Assembly (NCBI GenBank): GCA_016177845.1
Contig: JACOUO010000003.1
Coordinates: forward strand, 62,001 to 126,000
Direction of reading: 5' to 3'
Origin: Deltaproteobacteria bacterium
GTDB taxonomy: Bacteria; Desulfobacterota; GWC2-55-46
DNA length: 64,000 nucleotides
Part shown: one piece after another, positions 4,303 to 61,874 of the stretch
How the letters are laid out: the number at the start of each line of letters is the position of its first letter
How positions within the stretch are numbered: the first letter of the stretch is position 1
Position numbers and translations under genes: made by a program
The notes under the pieces: generated by a model
Databases searched by the model: none
What the model was told of the DNA's origin: nothing
What the model saw: only the letters and a program-made list of their open reading frames with translations

Positions 4303-4484
4303 TGTCGAGTCATTTATTTGTCTCGAAAGATTAAAAAAAGAATAATTTTTACAAAATTTTAGAAATTATTGTTAATTTTTTTGACGCGATTAGATTGAGC
4401 CAAACTGCTTGAAATTCTTTCAGATTTCTCCTTAATGGTTAGTTTCAATAACCGTATCATTGTTAAATTTTTCTTAATTTCAGC

Positions 4485-4512
4485 TTGACTTTTCAATTTA
4501 GGAAAGTATAAT
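4485..4512 (+). promoter_or_regulatory. Sigma-70 promoter of the cytochrome gene
   Basis: TTGACT at 4485-4490 and a perfect TATAAT at 4507-4512 are separated by 16 bp. The surrounding DNA is A/T-rich. Transcription would start near 4519, about 138 nt before the cytochrome start codon, leaving room for the regulatory leader described next. Confidence 0.75.
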
Positions 4513-4518
4513 CATACT

Positions 4519-4616
4519 AAATTAACGAACCTTTGTGGCTCATGATGGGTCATGCGGGTTAAGGCGATGGGTGCCACCGGTACAACAATCTTGTTGTATT
4601 GATGGCATTTTTTTTT
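4519..4616 (+). promoter_or_regulatory. Structured 5' leader ending in an intrinsic terminator (candidate attenuator or riboswitch)
   Basis: Downstream of the promoter and before the coding region is a near-perfect hairpin: TGCCA (4572-4576) and ACAACAA (4582-4588) pair with TTGTTGT (4591-4597) and TGGCA (4603-4607), with only one mismatch and two G-U pairs between, followed by nine T residues (4608-4616). Upstream in the leader CATGA/TCATG and CCTT/AAGG can pair. A full terminator between a promoter and its gene implies conditional readthrough. The segment GGCGATGG...TGATGG recalls the fluoride (crcB) aptamer, but the expected first stem has a C-A mismatch and the terminal UACU is absent. 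It does not match the c-di-GMP-I aptamer either. Class is therefore unknown. Confidence 0.6.
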
Positions 4617-4656
4617 GAGTTAAATATATTTTGCATTTTTGGAGCGAGGTGCTCAA

Positions 4657-5637
4657 ATGAAGAGAATAATAAGCCTGTTCGCCTTAACAGCATTGACTTT
4701 CGCGGGAGCCGAAATAGGGTCCGCGGCAACAGTTGCAGACTATCCTGCCGGTACAACGGCAAACGGAATAGCAGGCTCGAGGCACAATCTTGGTTCTTTA
4801 GGCAAAGTCATTACAACAAACAATACAACAGAGATTTGTGTTTTCTGTCATACCCCGCATCATACTAATACTTCCAATAATCTGAAACCGTTGTGGAACA
4901 GAGGCACTGCTGCTCCATCAGCCTATACTGCTTACGGAACAACACTTGGCGGCACAACGATAGTCTCTTCTGATATCGGCTCTACAACGCTGGCCTGCTT
5001 AAGCTGCCATGACGGCGTAACGACATTTGACAACATCATAAACACACCCGGTAAGGGCGGCACAACAGCCACAAACCTCAGCTGGAATTTCAATATGCCC
5101 GGTATCGGTTCATGGTATCCGGGAAGTCCGGCGCTTGACCACTTCAATACAGACGCAATGGGCCCTTGCGCAACATGTCACGGGGCGGCTAATCCTGCTA
5201 CAAGGCTTTCACTTCAGCAGAACCTGACAAATGACCACCCTGTATCAGTGGCTTACAACCCTTCTGTTGCTGGCTTAAGGGCTACAAGCACTGTAATAAA
5301 TTCAATCGACCTGACTGCTGAACTTGCAGCCTCAGCAGCCTCCTATAATAATTCAAACCTCGCTCAGAACCGTTGGGCTGTCAAAGGTTATATCTCCGAT
5401 ACTGCGACAATTGGAGATCTGCTCAGGAATAACAAGGTAGAGTGCAGTTCTTGCCATGACCCCCACTTCAAGAACTTAAGCTGGGATGAAGTCGAGAGCT
5501 CCTGGGCGATTAATCCTCAGACAGGAAATCCCTGGAATTACTGCGCAGGCCCTGAGGACTGCTCGGACGGCCAGTTCTTAAGAAGGGTCGGCGGCAACAC
5601 AGGCTCCGGCGTCTGCAGGACATGCCACAATAAGTAA
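4657..5637 (+). CDS. Secreted pentaheme c-type cytochrome
   Basis: The product (about 326 residues) has an N-terminal signal peptide (MKRIISLFALTALTFAGAEI, cleavage likely near SAA) and five CxxCH heme-attachment motifs: CVFCH, CLSCH, CATCH, CSSCH and CRTCH. CVFCHTPHH and CSSCHDPH resemble the CxxCHxPH pattern of multiheme families in metal- or nitrogen-respiring bacteria. It should be periplasmic or extracellular and carry electrons; donor and acceptor cannot be told from sequence. The start chosen is ATG 4657, with GAGGT at 4646-4650; a TTG at 4639 would lie before the ribosome binding site. The gene stands alone between its own promoter/leader and a strong terminator, so it is a monocistronic, regulated unit. 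Confidence 0.88.
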   Translation: MKRIISLFALTALTFAGAEIGSAATVADYPAGTTANGIAGSRHNLGSLGKVITTNNTTEICVFCHTPHHTNTSNNLKPLWNRGTAAPSAYTAYGTTLGGTTIVSSDIGSTTLACLSCHDGVTTFDNIINTPGKGGTTATNLSWNFNMPGIGSWYPGSPALDHFNTDAMGPCATCHGAANPATRLSLQQNLTNDHPVSVAYNPSVAGLRATSTVINSIDLTAELAASAASYNNSNLAQNRWAVKGYISDTATIGDLLRNNKVECSSCHDPHFKNLSWDEVESSWAINPQTGNPWNYCAGPEDCSDGQFLRRVGGNTGSGVCRTCHNK

Positions 5638-6538: not shown

Positions 6539-6566
6539 TTGACTTATTCCCTGTTTCTGGTATAAT
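6539..6566 (+). promoter_or_regulatory. Sigma-70 promoter upstream of rpsU / candidate small RNA
   Basis: TTGACT (6539-6544) and TATAAT (6561-6566) are 16 bp apart, the same arrangement as the cytochrome promoter. Predicted start is near 6573, which is 230 nt before the rpsU start codon. Confidence 0.7.
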
Positions 6567-61760: not shown

Positions 61761-61874
61761 TACAAAGACCTTATACTCGAACTGTCACCGTATGGTGTGC
61801 GTTCGTGGCAATCTCACGATAGGGATAAGGTCGCCTGATTTTTCAAGGCCAAGCGATTTGCTTGGCCTTTTTTA
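61761..61874 (+). ncRNA. Candidate structured small RNA of the island
   Basis: A transcript of about 114 nt runs from the promoter to an intrinsic terminator (AAGGCCAAGC/GCTTGGCCTT at 61845-61869, then TTTTTATT). Its core closes with an 8-bp perfect stem GACCTTAT (61767-61774) with ATAAGGTC (61825-61832). Inside, CGAAC/GTTCG and CACC-GTAT-GGTG stack into one arm; GTG/CAC nearby could form a short second arm. The T-run lies on the plus strand only, so the terminator serves this RNA and not the convergent DUF3800 gene. There is no credible ORF. No known family was recognised. Confidence 0.55.

Follow-up and report, generated by a model that had tools for sequence, protein, structure and literature searches.

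A covarying two-hairpin leader with an intrinsic terminator, ANTAR-like in layout, precedes cytochrome and diguanylate cyclase genes in uncultured Deltaproteobacteria

The window analyzed here, a 64,000-nucleotide stretch of a deltaproteobacterial genome, carries a structured leader between a promoter and a pentaheme c-type cytochrome gene, and about 80 distinct copies of this leader occur in one uncultured deltaproteobacterial class. Its recurrence and strong covariation place the element well beyond chance, and it is an RNA family that is missing from Rfam. We interpret it as a default-off transcription attenuator in which two hairpins, P2 and P3, are most likely bound by a dimeric protein of the ANTAR kind, a reading to which we assign a probability of about 0.6.

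The element lies on the plus strand downstream of rpoD. As the sequence-only reading had proposed, it begins with a sigma-70 promoter, TTGACT-N16-TATAAT, at 4485-4512 with 11 of 12 consensus matches. The same hexamers and spacing occur again at 6539-6566 on the plus strand; this second promoter has an extended -10, lies ahead of an ORF resembling ribosomal protein S21, and looks ordinary. The transcript from approximately position 4519 is predicted to form an upstream hairpin followed by a terminator stem, and the region 4519-4618 folds at -35.7 kcal/mol with a z-score of -3.9 against dinucleotide shuffles, in agreement with the structured leader claimed earlier. The upstream part consists of an outer helix P1 (4528-4560), formed by AACC at 4528-4531 and GGTT at 4557-4560, which encloses the hairpin P2 (4537-4551; GGCTC-ATGAT-GGGTC) with a loop of the class ANGRN. 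It is followed by a putative antiterminator hairpin, P3 (4563-4575; GGCG-ATGGG-TGCC). The intrinsic terminator (4569-4616) has TGCCA at 4572-4576 paired with TGGCA at 4603-4607 near its base, which it has in common with the 3' arm of P3. The terminator described before as near-perfect has approximately 18 pairs with internal mismatches, and the nine T expected after it are present at 4608-4616. Neither P3, which excludes the terminator, nor the covarying P1 had been recognized previously. An attenuator of the leader-peptide type was rejected because only about 13 nt lie between the -10 box and the start of P1, too few for an ORF.

The gene behind the leader (4657-5637, plus strand) starts with ATG at 4657 and encodes five CxxCH motifs, so that the pentaheme assignment holds. 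The product is a predicted secreted c-type cytochrome of the Paired_CXXCH family (Pfam PF09699) with a signal-peptide-like start. The profile of its family matches Geobacter OmcE (PDB 7TFS) with an E-value of 5.4e-21 over profile positions 29-134 of 327, and 7TFS is a nanowire cytochrome (PMC12954529). The match covers the first third of the family profile, so that part of the protein is OmcE-like and, judged by sequence, members of the family may form extracellular cytochrome filaments.

A DNA search found the leader directly 5' of cytochrome paralogues in related genomes. About 20 leaders gathered by eye gave the architecture, and a covariance model trained on 18 of them gave about 100 hits at E-values up to 0.1, spread over 38 of the 97 related genomes searched; these counts take in paralogues, and many of the relatives are draft metagenome bins. 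Among the 95 distinct matches, 61 lie ahead of a cytochrome gene belonging to the family of the window gene and 19 ahead of a gene for a PocR-GAF-GGDEF cyclase protein, while the remaining 15 are at contig ends, weak or spurious, or unclear. In a phylum-wide sample the leader was found in 8 of 395 genomes, each of which belongs to the family or order of the window, and the sample of relatives added, at E <0.001, two genomes of a different family within the class. It was absent from the 34 sampled members of the phylum outside the class. The relatives that carry it include the uncultured deltaproteobacteria GWB2_55_19, GWA2_54_12, GWA2_55_10, H5_GWC, and UBA5799. The genome of the window has four matches, namely the window itself, a cytochrome paralogue, a cyclase operon, and a carbonic-anhydrase-like site. 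The last of these (G000:C5:227013-227095, minus strand; L098/L315) precedes an apparently broken ORF and is possibly a relic. The form ahead of the PocR-GAF-GGDEF gene is compact (L097, L101-L109) and adjoins secF-like genes; an AAA ATPase follows the cyclase gene wherever the next ORF was read, and the GGDEF site of the cyclase, GGEEF, looks canonical.

Near-consensus promoters in the same layout, mostly 12-15 nt before P1, precede 50 of the 95 distinct matches. Many of these homologous promoters contain ATTAAA(A/T) upstream and TTTTAAT within the spacer, which together resemble an operator-like inverted repeat. The arms form a perfect 12-bp repeat in leaders L038 and L072 (GATTAAAATAAG/CTTATTTTAATC) and are degenerate in the window (4430-4512). 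Judged from these repeats, a DNA-binding regulator may act at the leader promoters as well.

The homologous leaders provided the comparison that the earlier reading had called for, and covarying stems were found. The covariation score of the alignment was 0.373 versus 0.167 in shuffled alignments, a value reached by none of 500 shuffles, whereas sliding the pairing partners gave at most 0.09; since P1, P2, and the terminator were used to fit the alignment, the score leans to these elements, and P3 stands outside the model. Similarly, 87% of the cells were paired as opposed to 34-43% with the partner slid. P1 varies freely (AACC/GGTT, GACT/AGTC, GACC/GGTC, GGCC/GGCC, AAGTCT/AGACTT), with four pairs changed on both sides and 70-72% of the cells paired. 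P2 has a constant top, YUC-ANGRN-GGG, over a covarying lower stem; three of its five pairs are changed on both sides, 98.2% of the cells are paired, and the ANGRN pentaloop is present in 81 of 85 leaders. In the terminator stem, covariation extends over the whole length apart from the GCC/GGC base that it has in common with P3, and 11 of 14 pairs are changed on both sides across homologues. Two counts that do not depend on the alignment agree with this picture, as lower-stem pairing of P2 exceeded all 2000 shuffles at the first three positions and the P1 helices were longer than in all 500 shuffles. P3 follows the consensus GGY-N-ANGR(N)-U-GCC, with the ANG loop and the following GCC in 82 of 85 leaders and 92.5% of the cells paired. 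Because its pairs vary little, P3 is supported by sequence conservation and by mutual exclusion with the terminator rather than by covariation. These patterns bear on another alternative, a constitutive partial terminator that merely lowers expression and answers to no regulator. Such a device would sit comfortably behind a near-consensus promoter, but it would have no need of the loop bases of P2 and P3 and the pairing of P1, which are kept across paralogues and genera, and we regard it as very improbable.

The switch itself would depend on the UGCC segment common to P3 and the base of the terminator, which makes the two folds mutually exclusive. In 62 of 79 leaders, P3 is within the minimum-energy fold of the nascent RNA, but once the terminator arm has been made the terminator state is favored by a median of 3.6 kcal/mol. 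Given these modeled energies and the capture by P3 of the UGCC of the lowest terminator stem, a factor that holds P3 would give readthrough. We therefore infer a switch that is off by default and that an ANTAR regulator would turn on in response to its signal. In the proposed sequence of events, RNA polymerase would start from the promoter at 4485-4512, and P1 and P2 would form first, followed by P3. With no factor bound, the terminator would take over the UGCC of P3 and transcription would end at the U tract. If, instead, a dimeric RNA-binding protein (most likely an ANTAR protein) gripped the ANGRN-looped P2 and P3, the P3 held in this way would block the lowest terminator pairs beside the U tract, and the cytochrome gene would be transcribed. 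Of the two possibilities raised by the sequence-only reading, an attenuator or a riboswitch, the former gains support from the conservation, the covariation, and the mutually exclusive structures in homologous leaders; the latter is disfavored by the two like hairpins, the variable linker, and the ANTAR genes that adjoin the cytochromes in seven relatives.

ANTAR proteins bind dual hairpins with hexaloops carrying A1 and G4, the second hairpin overlapping a terminator (PMC3369931; PMC8934654), and the hairpins are separated by a linker of 2-25 nt (PMC8164766). The leader resembles such targets (EutV/eutP, NasR/nasF, AmiR/amiE) in having two small hairpins with look-alike loops, a short linker, and a second hairpin that overlaps and excludes an intrinsic terminator, as well as in the ANTAR genes that its genomes contain, which in some relatives are immediate neighbors. 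Its P2-P3 linker of 3-17 nt, variable in sequence, lies within the known range. Conservation of bases is restricted to both ANGRN loops and the pairs that close them, and two conserved loops at this spacing are what a dimeric protein binding two hairpins needs; such a layout fits antitermination by a bound protein more readily than an aptamer for a small molecule. The leader differs from ANTAR targets in its pentaloops, which take the place of A1/G4 hexaloops in both hairpins, and in the extra helix P1. Canonical A1/G4 hexaloops are not enriched, occurring in 12 of 85 leaders compared with 15.9 in shuffles. Since the loops break the hexaloop code, we call the leader ANTAR-like, meaning that by analogy it would work like an ANTAR target, and do not file it as one.

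The genomic distribution of ANTAR proteins was considered as well. Thirteen small stand-alone ANTAR-domain ORFs, about 85-110 residues long from their likely starts, were found in seven relatives, all within 2 kb of this cytochrome family. The one tested matches EutV with an E-value of 6e-11, but the proteins carry other residues at the EutV loop-contact positions Y164, M172, N173, and R175, and they have an invariant cysteine, often in CxxxC. There are two sequence types, with G or W after KAK and often neighbors (L111, L112, L114, L116), which, from their sequences, could possibly be a redox-sensing pair. Multiple ANGRN hairpins occur before cytochromes with an ANTAR gene next door (L111, L113, L114, L115). 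A profile of the small ANTARs found no stand-alone member in the window's genome, which encodes only two REC-ANTAR response regulators, and these would be its candidate regulators. Every genome with the leader at E <0.001 has an ANTAR protein, but members of the class that lack the leader have ANTAR proteins too, making this co-occurrence weak and confounded by descent. Sorting the ANTAR domains of about 60 genomes by the residues that correspond to the EutV contacts showed one REC-ANTAR type, SQKENKK, in the nearly complete leader genomes checked. Because it also occurs in leader-free genomes, this type does not identify the regulator.

The misfit between the loops and the published ANTAR code leaves room for another protein, CsrA-like or of a different kind, that would bind the dual-hairpin antiterminator, with the ANTAR neighbors being a coincidence. 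The pattern A-N-G-R-N bears a superficial likeness to the CsrA motif, ANGGA. However, position 4 of the loop can be A or G and position 5 is variable, which breaks the GGA core, and the location of all 13 stand-alone ANTAR ORFs beside these cytochromes is far beyond chance; this reading is thus distinctly unlikely. A leader regulated by CsrA itself was rejected, as GGA is not kept in the P2 loops (AAGAC, ATGAA, ACGAC, ATGGC, etc.). A guanidine-II look-alike (ACGR) was set aside as well because the leader loops vary at the decisive positions.

A new small-molecule riboswitch would be built differently, with P1, P2, and P3 forming an aptamer whose ligand, for example a cyclic dinucleotide, heme, or a redox metabolite, disables the terminator on binding. 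A nucleotide ligand would make sense with a GGDEF diguanylate cyclase as the second target set, cGAMP riboswitch signaling has been described in Geobacter (PMC8835794), and the outer helix P1 falls outside the published ANTAR motif. On the other hand, conservation is restricted to two similar hairpins joined by a linker of variable length and sequence, P1 is reduced or missing in the compact leaders before cyclase genes, and the adjoining stand-alone ANTAR genes would be left unexplained. The Rfam search recommended earlier was run with Rfam 15 on the leader and its homologues, and neither gathering nor relaxed thresholds gave a match at the leader to a riboswitch or any other family. We therefore consider an aptamer unlikely. 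The GEMM-type cGAMP riboswitches of Geobacter (PMC8835794) are likewise RNA elements in a nucleotide-signaling context of an electroactive deltaproteobacterium, but the leader has a much smaller conserved core. The fluoride riboswitch (RF01734) was rejected since it has no match at the leader at E-values up to 10, bearing out the doubt already voiced about it. The resemblance, GGCGAUGG...UGAUGG, is superficial and one of letters only; the GGCGAUG/UGCC hairpin varies in leader homologues, and the UGAUGG part is the 3' arm of the terminator. Elsewhere in the window, Rfam RF02968 (DUF3800-IX RNA) matches 61767-61836 on the plus strand with 60.9 bits.

The ANTAR-like attenuator differs from known ANTAR targets also in the genes that it would control. 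A genome-wide search in 2012 tied ANTAR regulons mostly to nitrogen metabolism (PMC3369931), whereas this leader precedes nanowire-type cytochromes and a diguanylate cyclase. A literature search for ANTAR proteins together with cytochromes found no such report, which, given its partial coverage, is weak evidence of novelty. More tentatively, the leader could represent a new class of antiterminator with a twin-ANGRN code, read by a small molecule or by divergent, perhaps cysteine-redox-sensing ANTARs, and controlling both extracellular cytochrome wires and the synthesis of c-di-GMP. If the ANTAR reading is true, this type of control would extend to extracellular electron transfer and to the production of a second messenger, and the code by which the RNA is recognized would have changed. 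The leader also opens a testable route to the question of when nanowire-type cytochromes are produced by uncultured deltaproteobacteria.
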